Origin: Flavobacterium erciyesense
Lineage (GTDB): Bacteria > Bacteroidota > Bacteroidia > Flavobacteriales > Flavobacteriaceae
Reading direction: 5' to 3'
DNA: 64,000 nt
Assembly (NCBI RefSeq): GCF_018069925.1
Contig: NZ_JAGPXB010000012.1
Span: forward strand, 1 to 64,000
The notes below the pieces were generated by a model, which worked only from the letters and a program-made list of their open reading frames with translations, was not told the origin of the DNA and did not search any database. Position numbers and translations under genes: made by a program. Every line of letters starts with the position of its first letter. Positions within the stretch are counted from its first letter, which is position 1. Shown here in pieces: positions 48,119 through 57,263 of this stretch.

Positions 48119-48847
48119 CTACTTCATTAATTTCTCAGCGTCATTCAATCTTTGCGCTACATTGTCCCAATTTATAATGTTAAACAAAGCATCTACAAAA
48201 TCAGTTCGCTTATTTTTGTACTTCAAATAATAGGCGTGTTCCCAAACATCAATAACTAATATTGGAATTGCACCCCATTGCGTTAGTTTTTCGTGGTTTT
48301 CACATTGTAGAACTACAAGCCCATCACTATAAGGTTGATAGGCTACTATACCCCAACCATTACCATCAACATTTTTTGCGGTAGCTGCAATTAAGACTTT
48401 CAATCTGTCGAAACTACCAAAGCTTTTCTCAATTCGTTTCAGCAAATTTCCTTGTGGCATGTTGCTTTTATTCGTAAGATTTGTCCAAAATATTGAATGT
48501 AAGATATGAGATGAAAAATGATACGATAGTTTTTTTGTCCAAAAATCAACTGTTTCCAAATTGTTTTCATCCAATGCTTTTTTAATCATTTGCATATCCT
48601 TGTTTGCGCCTTTTACCGCCCCGCCGTGATGAAAAGTATAATGTAGATGTAAGGTTTCCGCATCCATGTAAGGTTCTAAAAAACTTTCGTTATACGGTAA
48701 TGTTTGTTGAATATAATTGCCATTTGCATCAACCAATTTATCAATAGAATTATCGGATAAATTTTCAGCAAACGCATTCGTAGTAGGAAGCACTAATGCT
48801 GCTGCTCCAAATAAAGTACTCGATTTTAAAAAATCTTTTCTGTTCAT
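48119..48847 (-). CDS. Exported Fe/Mn superoxide dismutase of the chromate operon
   Basis: This 242-residue SOD of the Fe/Mn family is preceded by an export signal (MNRKDFLKSSTLFGAAALVLPTTNAFA). That signal is Tat-like in layout but has Arg-Lys rather than Arg-Arg. Metal ligands are seen in LHLHYTFHH (first His), SSHILHSIFW, and VIDVWEHAYYLKY (Asp and His). It disproportionates superoxide, which arises when chromate is reduced. Its start overlaps the chrA stop by four bases. This parallels the chrC (SOD-like) gene of the Ochrobactrum chrBACF operon, so a protective role in chromate stress is inferred. Confidence 0.92.
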   Translation of the reverse strand: MNRKDFLKSSTLFGAAALVLPTTNAFAENLSDNSIDKLVDANGNYIQQTLPYNESFLEPYMDAETLHLHYTFHHGGAVKGANKDMQMIKKALDENNLETVDFWTKKLSYHFSSHILHSIFWTNLTNKSNMPQGNLLKRIEKSFGSFDRLKVLIAATAKNVDGNGWGIVAYQPYSDGLVVLQCENHEKLTQWGAIPILVIDVWEHAYYLKYKNKRTDFVDALFNIINWDNVAQRLNDAEKLMK

Positions 48848-50010
48848 AATATTAATTTTATAAGAACCCCAACAACTGCTGATGCCGCAATAATATAAGG
48901 TTCTTGAATTTTCTTGATATAAAGTAAAGCAAAAATTGTTGCAATAGCTATTAGCGTTGTTGGAATATCCAAAATACTTCTAGATGCAATTACACCAACA
49001 GCTCCCACCAATGCCCCAACAACTGCCGCAGTAATTCCATCTACAAAAGCTTTGATAGATTGGTTTTGCGCTATTTTCTTAAAGGATGGAGCCAAAGCGA
49101 TTGTAAATAAATAACACGGTAAAAATGTAGCGAAAGCAGCAACCAAAGCACCCGGAAAACCAGCAACTAAATAACCAATAAAGCCAACAGTAATAACAAC
49201 TGGACCAGGTGTAATCATTGCTACGGCAACCGCATCAACAAATTGATGTTCCGTTAACCATTGGTTTTCTACTACGACACCTGAATGTAAAAAGGGTACA
49301 ATTGCCAATCCACTACCAAATACAAAAGCTCCCGCTTTGGCAAAAAAGACAGCAATTTTCATAAGAGTAGAATTGTCATAGTTCCAAAAACCAACTTGTA
49401 ATAAAACAATAGAATTGGTTGTTTTACCATTAAACCATTTTGGTGGTGCTTTGACAAACATATATATAATCCCCGCCAATACAAATAACAAAACTTGTTC
49501 CTGTTGTGTAACCAATGTTACAACTATTGCTACTACAAAAAACAGCCACAATAACCAATTCGTTTTAAAAGAGATTACATTAAATTTGCCGATAGATTTT
49601 ATCGTTAGTTTATAGGAACTCATTACAATAATACCAATAACAGCCGCACCTACACCATAAAAAACGGCTTGTATCCAAGATAATCCTCCGTATAACTTGT
49701 AAACGATGCCCAATAGCACCACCATTATAAAAGAAGGCAAAATAAAGGCAAAACCAATCAACGTTGCCCCTAAAAAACTATAATGTACAAATCCAAGGTA
49801 AATGGCTAATTGTGCCGCTAACGGACCTGGTGCTAATTGCGCCAAGGCTAAGCCTTCTTTATATTCATCTTCAGAAATCCATTTTTGATCTTCGACTAAA
49901 TCTCGGTGCATATAACCAACCAATGCTACTGGACCGCCAAAACCAGTTGTCCCTAATTTCAGGAAATAAAGAAGCAACTCTTTTAAATTATATATTGGAT
50001 TTTCTTTCAT
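48844..50010 (-). CDS. chrA: Chromate efflux transporter ChrA
   Basis: This long-chain CHR family transporter (388 residues, two CHR halves) exports chromate. The N-half carries LGTTGFGGPVALVGYMHRDLV and LAQLAPGPLAAQLAIYLG; the C-half repeats the pattern in FVFGSGLAIVPFLHSGVV and MITPGPVVITVGFIGYLVAG. About ten hydrophobic segments are present. It shares an ATGA-type four-base overlap with the downstream SOD gene and lies 12 bases after the barrel gene, within the operon headed by the ChrB-AraC fusion. Confidence 0.95.
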   Translation of the reverse strand: MKENPIYNLKELLLYFLKLGTTGFGGPVALVGYMHRDLVEDQKWISEDEYKEGLALAQLAPGPLAAQLAIYLGFVHYSFLGATLIGFAFILPSFIMVVLLGIVYKLYGGLSWIQAVFYGVGAAVIGIIVMSSYKLTIKSIGKFNVISFKTNWLLWLFFVVAIVVTLVTQQEQVLLFVLAGIIYMFVKAPPKWFNGKTTNSIVLLQVGFWNYDNSTLMKIAVFFAKAGAFVFGSGLAIVPFLHSGVVVENQWLTEHQFVDAVAVAMITPGPVVITVGFIGYLVAGFPGALVAAFATFLPCYLFTIALAPSFKKIAQNQSIKAFVDGITAAVVGALVGAVGVIASRSILDIPTTLIAIATIFALLYIKKIQEPYIIAASAVVGVLIKLIL

Positions 50011-50022
50011 AAATAAGATATT

Positions 50023-50523
50023 CTAAAAGGCTATACCAAATTGGAAACCTACAGTAAAATTGGCTGGATGGTCATTTCCAAACCTAACCGGTAATGGAAT
50101 GGCAACATAATAACTGCTGTTGGCATTTTTTATTACTGTTTTGTTGAATACTGGAGTTACGCCATATCTACCATTAGTTTCAAAAGCGGCTCTGCCTGCA
50201 AATGTGTAGCCGTTTCCTAGTGCTACCAGCACGCCAGGATGAAATAATAAACTATTGACTTTACTGATTCCATCTTCTGCTCTTATATTAGGAACTATTT
50301 CAAAGGAAAAACCAATTTTAGAGCTTTTCCATATGTTAATTCCTGTTGGAAAACCAACAGCGTAATAATCTTTAAAGTTTAAAGTAGTTTCATCTTCACT
50401 GAAAGTTACTATAGGATGAACTACACCAAAATAGCCCGTAATTTTTGGATAGGTTGTTTGTCCAATAGCAGAAAAAGAAAATACTAATAAAGCAGGAAGC
50501 AGAAAATGTTTGAAGGGAATCAT
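50023..50523 (-). CDS. Predicted outer-membrane beta-barrel protein of the chromate operon
   Basis: The 166-residue product has a signal peptide (1-21, ending IGQ) and alternating strands with aromatic ends. It finishes in FTVGFQFGIAF, a terminal Phe typical of outer-membrane barrels. No named family is recognised. It lies between the regulator and chrA in the same orientation, 12 bases from chrA, so it may form a channel or stress-related barrel for the chromate system. The promoter candidate directly upstream of its ATG suggests a regulated start here. Confidence 0.8.
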   Translation of the reverse strand: MIPFKHFLLPALLVFSFSAIGQTTYPKITGYFGVVHPIVTFSEDETTLNFKDYYAVGFPTGINIWKSSKIGFSFEIVPNIRAEDGISKVNSLLFHPGVLVALGNGYTFAGRAAFETNGRYGVTPVFNKTVIKNANSSYYVAIPLPVRFGNDHPANFTVGFQFGIAF

Positions 50524-50543: not shown

Positions 50544-50578
50544 CAAAACTATATAGGTTAAATAAGTATAAATAGTAT
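50544..50578 (-). promoter_or_regulatory. Putative promoter and activator box of the chromate operon
   Basis: On the minus strand TAGTTTTG (50544-50551) matches TAnnTTTG exactly, 21 bases before the barrel gene start. Just upstream lie two near-repeats, AAATAAGTAT (50560-50569) and AAATAGTAT (50570-50578) as read on the plus strand, about 10 bases apart and at the -20 to -35 position suited to an AraC-type regulator. An inverted repeat with a T9 loop (about 50522-50555) spans the start region. Confidence 0.45.
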
Positions 50579-50579
50579 G

Positions 50580-51449
50580 TTATTTACCTTTTGTATCTGG
50601 ATTACTTTTTTGTATATTTTTTCGATAGGAGGAAGGATTTTTTCCTGTACTCTGCTTGAATATTCTCGTAAAATGACTTTGATCTGAAAACCCCGTCATA
50701 TAGGCTATTTCAGTAAGTGTATAGCTTGAATTCTGAATAAGAGTAATTGCTTTCTCTATTCGTAATTTTCTAACATAATCACCAAAATTAAGATCTTCAA
50801 AATACTTTGAAAACTCCCTTGATAAGTAGGAAGGATTAAGCTCTAAATCATTAGAAATCTTCTTTAAGTCAAAAGTGAATTGGGTATCAATCTGATCCTG
50901 AATAATTGCTTTTAAGTCTTTAACCCAATCTGGTGCTTTCTTATTATTTATTTTTTTCTCCTTTAAAAATTTATGATACACTTCGTGCAACATATTTTCA
51001 AAAGGACTATTCTGTAAATGATTTTGTTCATATAAATTTGTAGCCCAACTGTACAGGGCATCATAAATAACCATTCCGCTTTCCAATAATTTATAATCAT
51101 CAGTAATATTATAGGAAAGACCAGCTGAAATAGCCCAAAGTCCCGCGGATTCTTTTGCAATATCATGTCTGTCCGTATCTGCACCACGAACAATATCTGC
51201 TATAATTAGAATAGCAGGGTCTTTAATTTCATATTTTTTTACGATGTAGTCAAAGGTACTTTGCTCGTTGTAATGTGTAAATTCCACATTAGGAATGTCA
51301 AATGGAATGGCCTCAAACTCTTTTGCTTTATCTAAAACTTCGTTGAATGGAACATAAATAAATTCAGCCTCTAGGTCCACAAAAGTTTTTATTAACCAAG
51401 GGGAAGCTATTCTATCAATTTTAGGTCGTTCTCTAGTGATCCATTTCAT
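50580..51449 (-). CDS. ChrB-domain / AraC-HTH fusion regulator
   Basis: The 289-residue protein joins two families. Residues 1-145 match the ChrB C-terminal (chromate resistance) domain: RERPKIDRIASPWLIKTFVDLEAEFIYVPFNEV and ADIVRGADTDRHD are its signatures. Residues 180-280 form an AraC-type double helix-turn-helix: LNPSYLSREFSKYFEDLNFGDYVRKLRIEKAI and TEIAYMTGFSDQSHFTRIFKQSTG. A canonical ChrB has a different N-terminal DNA-binding part, so this is a domain-swapped regulator. It lies upstream of the barrel, chrA and SOD genes on the same strand and probably activates them when chromate is present. Confidence 0.88.
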   Translation of the reverse strand: MKWITRERPKIDRIASPWLIKTFVDLEAEFIYVPFNEVLDKAKEFEAIPFDIPNVEFTHYNEQSTFDYIVKKYEIKDPAILIIADIVRGADTDRHDIAKESAGLWAISAGLSYNITDDYKLLESGMVIYDALYSWATNLYEQNHLQNSPFENMLHEVYHKFLKEKKINNKKAPDWVKDLKAIIQDQIDTQFTFDLKKISNDLELNPSYLSREFSKYFEDLNFGDYVRKLRIEKAITLIQNSSYTLTEIAYMTGFSDQSHFTRIFKQSTGKNPSSYRKNIQKSNPDTKGK

Positions 51450-51577
51450 CTATAGTTGTTTATAAGTTTTTTTGTTTAATATATTTTTTATTAAACTTAG
51501 AGAGGAGAGAAAAATTCCAGTTGTCTAAAGTAACATTATCAAAAGGGTTGTTGCTTTTTTTTAATGTTTAATTGTAA

Positions 51578-51617
51578 AAAAACACCCTTTGAATCCGTAA
51601 GAAATAAGGGTGTTTTT
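51578..51617. terminator. Hairpin terminator between the RND operon and the chromate regulator
   Basis: AAAAACACCCTT and AAGGGTGTTTTT form a perfect 12-bp stem with a 16-base loop, flanked by an A-run on the left and a T-run on the right, so it can end transcripts from either side. It would close the minus-strand metal-efflux operon. Confidence 0.78.
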
Positions 51618-52919: not shown

Positions 52920-55900
52920 TTATTTTGATATTAAATTTCCTAATTTAAGAATTGTTTCATTGAATTTTCTAACCGTTTCAATGTAGTTACTTTGAATTTC
53001 TGTATTTTGATTGATCAACATTACCCACTCCAGATAATTGATGTCACCATTGATGAATTTATCATTAGCGGCTTTAGTTACCAAATCCACATTCTTTAAA
53101 GCCTGATTTTCGAAATAAGTAATAGTTTCTTGGTGTTTTTTCGATTCTTGAATTAATTCCTGATACTGACTTTGCAGTTTTAATTTTTCGTTAGTCAAAT
53201 TATTTTCTGCAATTTGACTGTTGATTTCTAATGCTTTTTGTCTGTTTTTTATGTTTGAATTGAAAAGCGGCAGTGCCACTCCAAATTGTCCATAAACGCC
53301 ATTATAGCCATCTTGAAACGCAGTATTTGTTTTGAATGTCTGCCAATAAACACCGCCAATTAATTCGGGTAATTTTTTAGATTTTTCAAGTGAAATTTGC
53401 GCTTTGTTGCTATTTACTTCTTGCTCAAATAATTTTATAGTGGGTTGATTGCTTATAACATTTTTATCTAAATTTTCAGCAAAATCCAATTTGTATTTAT
53501 CTGAAACCGGGATAAAGTCTTTATCTGTATTAAGAATGTACTTGAATTGCAATTGTGTCATTTTATAATCACTTTGTAATTCCAGAAGTTGAATTTTTAT
53601 TTGTCCTGATTGATTTTCGGCAGTTGCTTTTTCTAATATATTGCTTTCTCCTTTGTCAAAACGAAGTGTTGATTTTCTTAAAAATTCAGAATAGATACTA
53701 TCACTTTTTAGCAATAATTTTTCCTTTTCTTTGAGATAAACCATTTCATAAAATACTGTTGTCACTTGTCTTGTCAATTCCTTTCTTTGTAAGACTTCGT
53801 TCCATTCGCCAGTTTTGGCTTCTTCAATTAGCAGTTGTTTCTGCCTTTTGTAAACTGTCGGAAATTTAATAGTTTGTGAAACGCCAATTTTTATATCATT
53901 AGCATTGCTGTTAAACTGACCATATTCCCCAATAATTCCCGTGTTGGAAATATCGTAGCCCGTCTTGGTCATTTTTTGTAAATATTCAGAATTTAGTTTT
54001 CCGTTTTTTATTTTTATATTGTTATCCAATGCAGTTTCAATGGCTTTTTCAAGTGAAATTTTTTCTTGGGCACTTGCATTTTGAAAAGAAAAAAACAACC
54101 CCAATACCATGATTGTTGTAATTGATTGCATTTTTTTTGATTTTAATTTAGCTCCTTTTTCGAACATAATGTATAAAATTGGTAAAACAAATAAGGTCAA
54201 TAAAGTAGCAATCAATAGCCCGCCAATTACAACTGTTGCCAATGGTTTTTGTACCTCGGCACCTGAACCATTGCTTAATGCCATGGGCAAAAAACCTAAT
54301 GAGGCTACAAATGCAGTCATTAAAACAGGACGTAAGCGTATTTTAGTTCCTTGCAAAACAATCGCTTTCAAATCGGTTTCACCTGATTTCCGAATACTGT
54401 TAAATTCTGCAATTAATACCAATCCATTCAGAACCGCTACACCAAATAAGGCTATAAAACCAACTCCGGCACTGATACTAAAAGGCATTCCTCGCAACGC
54501 TAAAAAGAAAATACCTCCAATTGCAGAAAGTGGAATCGCGGAATAAATCAATAGTCCTTGTTTCACTGAATTGAATGCAAAATAAAGCAAAATAAATATT
54601 AATAATAATGAAACCGGAACAGCTATCATTAAACGATTTTTGGCTTCATTTAGGTTTTCAAATGCACCGCCATAAGTAGGATAGTAACCCGCGGGAAATT
54701 TTATTTGGGCTTCGACTTTTCCTTGCAACTCTTTTACTATACTTTGCACATCGCGGCCTCGAATATTAAAACCAACCACAATTCTACGTTTAGCGTCTTC
54801 TCTTTGTATCTGATTTGGTCCTTCGGTAATTTCAACTTTTGCTAATTGGGATAACGGAATTTGCATACCATTTGGTGTTGGAATTAATAAATTTTGAACA
54901 TCTGCCAAATCCTGACGTTTTTCGCCTTCCAGACGAACTACTAAATCAAATCTTTTTTCACCTTCGTAAATAACTCCGGTGCTTTGTCCTGCAAATGCGG
55001 TATTTACTATTCGATTAATATCTTCAATGTTCAATCCATATTGCGCTATTGTTGACCGATTGTAGTCAATTACCACTTGTGGCATTCCGGTAACGGTTTC
55101 TATATAAAGATCAGAAGTACCCTCGACCGTATTCACAATTTTACCCAGTTTATTAGCGTATAAAGCCAGGGTATCTAAGTTTTCTCCAAATATTTTACAA
55201 ACCACGTCTTGTCTTGCGCCCGTCATTAATTCATTAAAACGCATTTGTACCGGATATTGAAAACCGTAAGAAACACCTGGAACAGCTTCTAATTCTTTTG
55301 CCATTTTTTCTGATAATTCGTCAAAAGTTTCGGCAGAAGTCCATTCGCTTTTGTCCTTTAAAATAATCATCATGTCGCTGGCATCAATAGGCATTGGATC
55401 GGTTGGTACTTCGCTGCTTCCAGTTTTACCAACAATTTTCTCTACTTCAGGGAACTTTTCTATTAGTATTTTTGCGCCCTGCGAAATAGCTGTCATCGAA
55501 GTTTGCAAATTACTTCCCGGTAAAACCCTTGTTTCTACAGCGAAATCCCCTTCTTCTAATGAGGGCATAAATTCACCACCCATAAACGAAAGTGTAATTA
55601 ATGCCAAAACAAATAATCCCAAAGTTGCAGCAATAATTGTTCGAGGAATTCCTAATGCTTTGTTCAGAAGAGGTTGATAGAAATTTTCTAATTTTTCCAT
55701 CATTCTATCTGAGAAGTTTTTTTTGTGAGATATGTTTTTATTCAAAAACAAAGCAGTCATCATGGGAACATAAGTCAGCGACAATATAAAAGCACCAAAA
55801 AGAGCAAACGCAATTGTTTGTGCCATTGGTAAAAACATTTTTCCTTCAATACCTCGCAAAGTAAAAATTGGAATGTATACTATCAATATAATCAGTTCTC

Positions 55901-57263
55901 CAAAAACGGATACATTACGCATTTTTATAGACGTTTTCAATACGGTGTTATCCATTTCTTGCTGTGAGATTTGAGAAGTTTTCCTGCTGTGTAAGCTAAA
56001 CAAACATGCTTCAACAATAATAACGGCACCATCTACAATCAATCCAAAATCTAATGCTCCTAAACTCATTAAATTACCGCTCACACCAAAAATATTCATC
56101 AGTATGACTGCAATTAACATAGCTAAAGGAATAACTGAGGCAACGATTAATCCTGCTCTTATATTTCCTAAAAAGAAAATTAAAACAAATAGGACTATCA
56201 ATGCTCCTTCTAATAAATTCGTTTCTACCGTTGAAATGGAATTATTCACCATTTTTGTTCGGTCTAAAAAGGGCTCTACAATAACGCCTTCGGGTAAGGT
56301 TTTTTGTATTTGCTCGATACGTTCTTTAATTTTTTTAATAACCACATTACTGTTAGCACCCTTTAACATCATCACTACTGCACCTGAAACTTCGCCAGAT
56401 GGCACTCCTTTTTTATTAAAAGTCATAGCACCATATCGGATAGCACTACCAATGCGAACATCGGCTACATCACGGATAAATAAGGGACTACCGCTACTGG
56501 TGTTTTTAATTGAAATGTCTTTTATATTTTCGATGGTATTAATCAATCCTTCACTTCGGATGTATAAAACTTTCGGACCTTTTTCGATATAAGCACCACC
56601 AGTATTTTGATTGTTTTTTTCTAAAGCAGAAAAAACATCAGCAATCGTAATATTATACGATTGTAATTTATTGGGGTCAATGGCAATTTCAAATTGTTTT
56701 AATTTTCCACCGAAACTACTCACTTCTGCAACACCTTCCACGCTTAATAATTGACGGCGAACAATCCAATCCTGAATGGTTCTCAACTCGGTTACATCGT
56801 ATTTTTTTTCATAACCGGGTTTTGTTCGAACCGCATATTGGTAAATTTCACCCAGCCCAGTAGTTACTGGTGCTAGAAATGGATTGCCTATTCCTTTGGG
56901 GATTTGGTCTTTTACCGCACTTAATCGTTCTGTTACTTGTTGTCTAGCCCAATAGACATCAGTTGCATCATCAAAAACAATGGTTACCACTGATAAACCG
57001 AAACGAGAAAAACTGCGAATTTCTTTCAGTCCAGGAATATTACTATTGGCTTGTTCAATTGGAAATGTAATCAGTCGTTCAATATCAGTTGCGCCCAACG
57101 ATGGTGCTGATGTGATTACCTGAACTTGATTATCTGTAATATCAGGAACGGCATCGATTGGTAATTTGGTAAATTGATAACTCCCATATCCTATGAGAGC
57201 CACAATGAAAAGGCCAACGATCAGCTTATTTTTGATTGAAAATTCTATGATTTTATTCAGCAT
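52920..57263 (-). CDS. CzcA/CusA-type heavy-metal RND pump fused to a TolC-like outer-membrane factor
   Basis: The 1447-residue fusion has a complete metal RND pump at residues 1 to about 1044 and a TolC-type outer-membrane efflux protein from about 1045. The pump's TM4 motif is DFGLIVDGAVIIVEA (about 400), which is of the divalent-cation (CzcA, Zn/Co/Ni) type rather than the Cu/Ag type. The TolC part starts at an internal Met1045 followed by a signal peptide-like stretch ending ASA-QE at 1065-1066, then KISLEKAIETALDNN and helical coils. Cleavage by signal peptidase could release a separate outer-membrane protein. The adaptor gene follows immediately. Confidence 0.93.
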   Translation of the reverse strand: MLNKIIEFSIKNKLIVGLFIVALIGYGSYQFTKLPIDAVPDITDNQVQVITSAPSLGATDIERLITFPIEQANSNIPGLKEIRSFSRFGLSVVTIVFDDATDVYWARQQVTERLSAVKDQIPKGIGNPFLAPVTTGLGEIYQYAVRTKPGYEKKYDVTELRTIQDWIVRRQLLSVEGVAEVSSFGGKLKQFEIAIDPNKLQSYNITIADVFSALEKNNQNTGGAYIEKGPKVLYIRSEGLINTIENIKDISIKNTSSGSPLFIRDVADVRIGSAIRYGAMTFNKKGVPSGEVSGAVVMMLKGANSNVVIKKIKERIEQIQKTLPEGVIVEPFLDRTKMVNNSISTVETNLLEGALIVLFVLIFFLGNIRAGLIVASVIPLAMLIAVILMNIFGVSGNLMSLGALDFGLIVDGAVIIVEACLFSLHSRKTSQISQQEMDNTVLKTSIKMRNVSVFGELIILIVYIPIFTLRGIEGKMFLPMAQTIAFALFGAFILSLTYVPMMTALFLNKNISHKKNFSDRMMEKLENFYQPLLNKALGIPRTIIAATLGLFVLALITLSFMGGEFMPSLEEGDFAVETRVLPGSNLQTSMTAISQGAKILIEKFPEVEKIVGKTGSSEVPTDPMPIDASDMMIILKDKSEWTSAETFDELSEKMAKELEAVPGVSYGFQYPVQMRFNELMTGARQDVVCKIFGENLDTLALYANKLGKIVNTVEGTSDLYIETVTGMPQVVIDYNRSTIAQYGLNIEDINRIVNTAFAGQSTGVIYEGEKRFDLVVRLEGEKRQDLADVQNLLIPTPNGMQIPLSQLAKVEITEGPNQIQREDAKRRIVVGFNIRGRDVQSIVKELQGKVEAQIKFPAGYYPTYGGAFENLNEAKNRLMIAVPVSLLLIFILLYFAFNSVKQGLLIYSAIPLSAIGGIFFLALRGMPFSISAGVGFIALFGVAVLNGLVLIAEFNSIRKSGETDLKAIVLQGTKIRLRPVLMTAFVASLGFLPMALSNGSGAEVQKPLATVVIGGLLIATLLTLFVLPILYIMFEKGAKLKSKKMQSITTIMVLGLFFSFQNASAQEKISLEKAIETALDNNIKIKNGKLNSEYLQKMTKTGYDISNTGIIGEYGQFNSNANDIKIGVSQTIKFPTVYKRQKQLLIEEAKTGEWNEVLQRKELTRQVTTVFYEMVYLKEKEKLLLKSDSIYSEFLRKSTLRFDKGESNILEKATAENQSGQIKIQLLELQSDYKMTQLQFKYILNTDKDFIPVSDKYKLDFAENLDKNVISNQPTIKLFEQEVNSNKAQISLEKSKKLPELIGGVYWQTFKTNTAFQDGYNGVYGQFGVALPLFNSNIKNRQKALEINSQIAENNLTNEKLKLQSQYQELIQESKKHQETITYFENQALKNVDLVTKAANDKFINGDINYLEWVMLINQNTEIQSNYIETVRKFNETILKLGNLISK

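Follow-up and report, generated by a model that had tools for sequence, protein, structure and literature searches.

Which genes would be governed by a protein that joins a chromate-resistance domain to an AraC-type DNA-binding domain, through which DNA site, and in response to which signal? The question is raised by a gene of Flavobacterium erciyesense located in the window analyzed here (a stretch of 64,000 nucleotides, positions 1 to 64,000 of contig NZ_JAGPXB010000012.1), which lies at 50580..51449 on the reverse strand, starts with ATG and encodes a protein of 289 aa according to the list of open reading frames.

The fusion regulator and its two domains

The initial annotation had read this protein as an N-terminal ChrB chromate-resistance domain followed by a C-terminal AraC helix-turn-helix pair, and both halves are borne out by Pfam. 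ChrB_C (PF09828) covers residues 3–135 (51045..51443, reverse strand; E 9.1e-48) and HTH_18 (PF12833) residues 199–277 (50619..50855, reverse strand; E 6.5e-20), both well over the curated cut-offs. Finding the two domains in one open reading frame supports the claim that sensor and DNA-binding regulator are combined in a single protein, and the domain order is indeed unlike that of classical ChrB, where ChrB_N precedes ChrB_C. ChrB_N (PF20229) gave no Pfam match in the fusion protein, while the same library detects it in C. metallidurans ChrB and in one ChrB from Bacteroidota. Since the E-values lie far beyond chance and the best 80 of 241 relatives align over at least 273 of the 289 residues (i.e., nearly full length), the two-domain architecture is not fortuitous.

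Other resources add little to this assignment. The 25 NCBIfam matches listed for the fusion protein, out of 26, are all far below the models' own cut-offs, PADLOC returned no defence-system match, and the sensor half has no solved structure matching it by sequence. AlphaFold2 modelled the fusion poorly (mean pLDDT 60.7, pTM 0.39), and the best matches of the model by Foldseek and VIA-align fall on the AraC half; a fold match for residues 1–102 (NrN, Z 6.0 and below) was set aside as weak and within the range that the tool rates as common. An open reading frame of 76 aa (50963-51193) lies inside the fusion gene, on the same strand in another frame, and nothing supports it as a gene.

Distribution of the fusion

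A scan of one genome per species yielded 337 candidate stretches, 241 of them encoding a relative, and the best 80 of these 241, which were examined, come from Flavobacterium, Pedobacter, Ferruginibacter, Pinibacter, and other Bacteroidota (the homologue in F. sandaracinum is 99% identical). Single genomes can appear under several identifiers (e.g., L081/L082/G025/G431 or L051/G548/G419). The genome of F. erciyesense itself has a single ChrB_C match. In an even sample of the phylum Bacteroidota, ChrB_C is present in 18 of 395 genomes; a BLAST comparison with the window protein identified the fusion in 16 of them (the copy of G300 being cut short), the remaining two having a classical ChrB (G200) and a broken ChrF-like gene (G387). 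Both ChrB_C and HTH_18 were detected by Pfam in 90 out of 90 fusions (the window protein, the 80 relatives, seven from the phylum sample, and two from plasmids), a figure that demonstrates whole fusions and not the frequency of ChrB_C fusion, as the set was picked for matching the fusion.

In a plasmid collection 1031 records match the protein, and only two of them, from Pedobacter and Spirosoma, cover at least 80% of it, so that in this collection the whole fusion is seen in Bacteroidota only. Both plasmid copies are annotated as "chromate resistance protein ChrB domain-containing protein." The Pedobacter copy has a Tn3-family transposase at its side, and the genes after it encode a hypothetical protein corresponding to the barrel described below, a chromate transporter, another ChrB-domain protein (ChrF-like), and a DUF1259 protein. 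In another genome (G441; L198:2704-3640) the fusion gene is cut after about residue 255–260 and the regulatory element treated below is gone; by eye, the DNA that follows resembles a mobile element.

Measured against the refuting outcome named at the outset (a two-domain protein already described as a common family), the protein is common in databases (241 stretches, the best 80 of them all nearly full-length), although literature searches made at the level of record listings found no published description matching it. The fusion is a conserved wiring of what is probably chromate sensing, made from two known parts and undescribed as far as our searches went.

The sensor half belongs to the ChrF type

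A sensor half of the ChrB type had been implied, and this point has to be corrected. In a tree of 39 domains (20 fusions, 11 ChrF, and 8 ChrB) the fusions group with stand-alone ChrF and not with the C-terminus of classical ChrB, the two sides being separated by a branch with 100/100 support; the long ChrB branches of this tree were flagged and one sequence with a broken frame (CHRF_G387) was excluded. The tree neither establishes nor rejects the fusions as a single clade (AU p 0.313). Outside Bacteroidota, the best listed matches (all from plasmids) have 53–58% identity over the first half of the protein, and those of them that were retrieved are short proteins with this one domain, for example the ChrF encoded in chrBACEF operons. 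A stand-alone ChrF was also seen within Flavobacterium, in G571 (L200:1980-3151), followed by a SOD gene with an interrupted frame; its best match to the fusion spans residues 1–157 only.

Replacement of R180, R187 or H229 by alanine has been reported to abolish chromate induction in O. tritici ChrB, the effect of C213A being not significant (PMC3817168). From the alignment and the spacing, established via C. metallidurans ChrB, these three residues correspond to R6, R13, and H59 of the fusion, which are kept in 98, 99, and 99 of 100 aligned rows, respectively. H258 of O. tritici ChrB is not retained, and residue 88, which aligns with its region, is an arginine in all 100 rows. One relative (L096) deviates at the N-terminus (MDYQRTPKINR), which may be the source of a row without arginine at position 6. 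In O. tritici ChrB, DNA binding was assigned to the N-terminal half (PMC3817168).

As for stand-alone ChrF, the O. tritici protein is reported to form a dimer that contains 1.0 Mn per monomer, shows SOD activity, and is subject to inhibition by Cr(III), Fe(II), and Cd(II), and the primer printed in that report encodes the start MKWITRE, the same as in the window protein (PMC4779226). As recounted in an Arthrobacter paper, deletion of chrF2 in C. metallidurans left resistance unchanged and O. tritici gained no growth from chrC and chrF (PMC2751784); vanadate resistance of O. tritici was tied to ChrA and ChrC rather than to ChrF (PMC7039435). ChrF-type domains, reported in the stand-alone protein as a superoxide dismutase and not as a sensor, have no established regulatory role, and this counts against the main reading that we propose below.

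Genes adjoining the regulator

Downstream of the regulator, on the same reverse strand, comes a gene for a predicted small outer-membrane beta-barrel protein of 166 aa (50023..50523), which the comparison of loci reveals as the most constant neighbor of the fusion. It belongs to no Pfam family. Its AlphaFold2 model (mean pLDDT 87.8, pTM 0.75) consists mostly of strands, and the best PDB matches of the model are designed transmembrane barrels and OmpA, with TM-scores of about 0.4–0.5. Then follow a ChrA chromate efflux transporter of 388 aa (48844..50010, reverse strand; PF02417 in two stretches, TIGR00937 with E 2.1e-113) and an Fe/Mn superoxide dismutase identified by Pfam (48119..48847, reverse strand), with a signal-like N-terminus and a presumed ChrC-like role, the start of which overlaps the end of chrA. 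That the barrel and the SOD are exported is predicted from their N-termini as judged by eye. On the other side, a terminator-like hairpin (51578..51617) lies between upstream metal RND genes and the regulator gene. Positions 52920-57263 encode a single chain of 1447 aa that unites an RND pump (ACR_tran, residues 5–1034) with an outer-membrane efflux factor (OEP, best stretch 1267–1443).

The initial annotation had the fusion heading an operon with the barrel, ChrA, and the SOD. The downstream gene order is right; the operon is only partly so, as a conserved promoter separates the fusion gene from the barrel gene (see below).

Across the 80 loci, the barrel is found downstream of the fusion in 69, chrA in 43, and the SOD in 17, and chrA and the SOD may be undercounted, fewer than 3,500 bases being available downstream in four loci. 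The barrel alone, without chrA or SOD downstream, was found in 34 loci, and only two (L038 and L081) have neither barrel nor chrA downstream. Among the 37 genomes without chrA downstream of the fusion, 16 have chrA elsewhere and 21 are without any ChrA. Given these barrel-only loci and genomes devoid of ChrA, the signal or the main output may not be chromate efflux. The genome of F. erciyesense has a second chrA on another contig. F. johnsoniae CI04 (L016) is among the strains in which the fusion, the barrel, and chrA form one locus. In the phylum sample, relatives of the barrel are present in 16 of 395 genomes, 12 of which are among the 18 with ChrB_C. Elsewhere (L136:3644-4709), a barrel homologue with 43% identity lies directly 3' of a small HTH_1 gene that, we assume, resembles the DNA-binding part of ModE, an arrangement that hints at a wider link of these barrels with oxyanions.

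A promoter and a putative operator at the end of the regulator gene

The barrel-chrA-SOD genes are preceded by a conserved promoter, CTATTT-N18-TAnnTTTG (50544..50575, reverse strand), in which TAnnTTTG (50551-50544) is the Flavobacterium −7 box, as described for Flavobacterium psychrophilum (PMC9723704). Upstream of it, within the last codons of the regulator, there is a putative operator (50584..50610, reverse strand) made of a direct repeat, AAAAAGTAA (50610-50602) and AAAAGGTAA (50592-50584), the half-sites being 18 bp apart (AAAAAGTAA-N9-AAAAGGTAA) with the consensus AAAAxGTAA. Taking the −7 box as −12 to −5 puts the direct repeat between about −71 and −45, and position −33 is occupied by CTATTT, which is nearly invariant. 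The promoter has a good −7 box and a non-consensus −33 element. The footprint site proposed in the initial annotation, 50544-50578, contains the conserved promoter, and the full conserved element is wider (50544-50610).

With spacers of 13–21 permitted in the search, C[T/A]ATTT-N18-TAnnTTTG was found in 72 of 81 gaps between fusion and barrel, always with a spacer of 18; in a single genome (G480) the spacer is 19 long. A scan of the region where the fusion gene ends detected the promoter core in 77 of 80 loci and missed it in L038, L059, and L081, of which L059 has a full element (score 40 of 46). Two further loci, L083 and L098, are without the element, and neither has an adjoining barrel or chrA. 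The direct repeat belongs to a conserved block of 41 bases, and the 18 spacer bases are variable.

The overlap with the coding sequence gives a clear view of this conservation. In 60 genes with a long tail, the codons overlapping the operator are AGT for serine in 53 of 53 cases, ACA for threonine in 55 of 55, and GGT for glycine in 44 of 44, when usage in the rest of the same genes is 0.19, 0.32, and 0.18, respectively, and the most uniform conserved serine, threonine, and glycine positions elsewhere in the gene reach only 0.83, 0.66, and 0.75. The block is also retained in 24 of 86 rows in which the stop codon comes some 22 bases sooner. Among 10 fusions of 51–67% identity, all except L083 and L098 keep it, scoring above all 200 shuffles. 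These frozen codons, early-stop genes, and distant fusions indicate that the block is kept as DNA, beyond what the protein asks for. Here a regulatory element clearly extends into the final codons of its regulator's own gene, where it shows as frozen synonymous codons, and we infer that the fusion protein binds it. In three AraC paralogues (L197:2278-4055, L202:2308-4077, and L203:4342-6078) a comparable promoter is located at the 3' end, ahead of another gene; the first of these paralogues has an ordinary AraC ligand-binding domain, and the gene after its promoter encodes a CAAX-protease (Rce1-like). Placement of elements at the 3' end of a regulator's own gene may be more widespread.

The regulator's own promoter is less evident. 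A candidate −7 box, TACTTTAG, is found at 51525..51532 (reverse strand), a weak and single match. With regard to autoregulation, exact ACAAAAnGTAA is absent from the coding strand in the 220 bp upstream of 100 fusion genes. A different motif, ATGTAnnTTAG, precedes 26 of these 100 genes and is absent in the window.

Unlinked copies of the element

Shared ancestry would by itself account for part of the element copies beside the fusion gene. The short form CTATTT-N18-TAnnTTTG is non-specific (eight matches in the F. erciyesense genome versus five for the reversed control). The longer element, with up to three mismatches, gave 40 matches in 150 Flavobacterium genomes versus nine for the reversed control. 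Of these, the 11 with two or three mismatches, among them likely chance matches, sites at AraC paralogues, and one at the broken fusion gene of G472, were not counted. The other 29 copies, with 0–1 mismatch, comprise 23 at intact fusion genes, two at remnants (G438 and G548), and four unlinked ones, and none of them was found in those of the 150 genomes that have no fusion gene or remnant. A second set of 37 fusion genomes gave 42 matches with up to two mismatches and none in the control; nine of the 42 lie at remnants or away from any fusion gene, which leaves 33, exactly as many as there are fusion loci in which an element is expected.

Over both sets there are nine unlinked copies, all in fusion-bearing genomes, after leaving out same-genome duplicates and clear fusion remnants (G438, G548/G419, and G421). 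Five precede chrA (G025, G486, G424, G430, and G423), two, identical in sequence, precede barrel-chrA (G437 and G025), one precedes a barrel (G411), and the last (G398) stands before an operon of an unknown gene, a putative chrA remnant, and chrF. The chrA that follows the element in G025 is broken into two frames. The nine copies do not amount to nine independent events: several are found at corresponding loci of related species, and several of the chrA copies resemble one another closely and have similar neighbors. No fusion remnant was detected upstream by tblastn in eight of the nine (the comparison covering some 230 bases in G424), and upstream of the G411 copy there is a weak fusion trace (23 residues, 56%, E 0.008). 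At the chrA sites the DNA just upstream differs among genomes, which argues that the block itself is kept. No element was found beside the unlinked chrA in 10 of the 16 genomes with chrA elsewhere, nor beside the second chrA of F. erciyesense.

Proposed mechanism and alternative readings

We consider it likely that the fusion activates transcription in response to chromate, with a ChrF-type sensor in place of the usual AraC ligand-binding domain. Chromate, or a species derived from it, would act on the N-terminal domain via basic residues including R6, R13, and H59; the AraC half would then bind the two direct half-sites just upstream of the promoter, and binding would turn on the barrel-chrA-SOD genes, in some genomes along with unlinked operons of chrA, barrel-chrA, and chrF. 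Activation appears favored over repression by the location of the repeat upstream of the promoter, with CTATTT at the −33 position; the layout is similar at araBAD, where AraC touches the polymerase at a weak promoter. Chromate is suggested as the signal by the homology of the sensor and the identity of the marked genes.

The same parts could work with the opposite sign, in a fusion that represses until chromate releases it, as is supposed for classical ChrB, and that differs from it only in being rebuilt with an AraC DNA-binding domain. For this speak the retained induction-critical residues and the precedent set for the sensor domain by classical ChrB, which controls a promoter that is active in its absence: the chr promoter of O. 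tritici has been reported to be on without ChrB and chromate-dependent with it (PMC3817168). The direct repeat, however, lies upstream of the promoter rather than across it, which suits an activator. AraC-family proteins are, besides, mostly activators, and repression seems improbable to us. Activation would equally hold if the sensor half read superoxide or reduced chromium instead of chromate itself, within an oxidative-stress switch that includes the chromate defences; this reading concerns the signal and is compatible with activation, so that the weights given here to the different readings do not sum to one. The SOD gene downstream in 17 of 80 loci and the properties reported for O. tritici ChrF, which shares the MKWITRE start (Mn SOD activity inhibited by Cr(III); PMC4779226), point this way, but the SOD claim for ChrF was encountered from one group only and the unlinked operators mark chrA, barrel or chrF and not general oxidative-stress genes, so we hold it to be rather unlikely.

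Chromate might also be the wrong oxyanion, or the main task of the fusion might be the control of the outer-membrane barrel, with chrA recruited later. The prevalence of the barrel over chrA (69 versus 43 of 80 loci), the 21 of 37 genomes without any ChrA, the 10 of 16 genomes whose unlinked chrA has no element beside it, and the barrel homologue 3' of a small HTH_1 gene would all agree with it; yet seven of the nine unlinked operators are directly before chrA or barrel-chrA and an eighth is before the putative chrA remnant followed by chrF, and we give this possibility little credence. The chromate-responsive activator can, on the other hand, be extended into a bolder version, in which the regulator carries a whole ChrF-type Mn-binding redox domain, gauges chromate via the reactive species or the Cr(III) produced, and runs a three-layer defence (outer-membrane barrel, inner-membrane ChrA, and exported SOD) from an operator in its own last codons. 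We regard this version as doubtful. If true, the barrel would be an unrecognised outer-membrane component of chromate defence in Bacteroidota. The activator reading provides a small regulon predicted from sequence alone, including an outer-membrane barrel, and a possible chromate biosensor part for Bacteroidota. A ChrB_C/ChrF domain placed on an unrelated DNA-binding domain is what would be expected if that domain is the real chromate sensor.

Comparison with known systems

The closest relative of the sensor half is the stand-alone ChrF of chrBACEF operons and TnOtChr, with which the fusion has in common the domain and the start MKW[IV]TRERP.IDR; ChrF has about 150 aa and no DNA-binding domain, whereas the fusion reaches 289 aa with the added AraC domain. 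With classical ChrB (O. tritici and C. metallidurans) the fusion shares ChrB_C with its three induction-critical residues and, in the window, the vicinity of chrA and a SOD gene. Classical ChrB differs in having ChrB_N, which the fusion is without, in its operator, in the separate group formed by its ChrB_C, and in DNA binding, assigned there to the N-terminal half and in the fusion to the C-terminal AraC domain. The AraC/XylS activators (AraC, RhaS, and SoxS) possess the same C-terminal helix-turn-helix pair, and their operators are direct repeats located immediately 5' of the promoter, for which the fusion locus has a putative equivalent; the fusion departs from them by its ChrB_C sensor. 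A C. metallidurans ChrE (rhodanese) query, which matches operons of Pseudomonadota, found no match in L002 (with a fusion 99% identical to that of the window). The chrBAC(E)F operons of Pseudomonadota bring together a regulator, chrA, and an Fe/Mn SOD gene, as does the window, but the fusion locus adds a barrel gene, puts the ChrF-type domain in the regulator, and uses another DNA-binding half.
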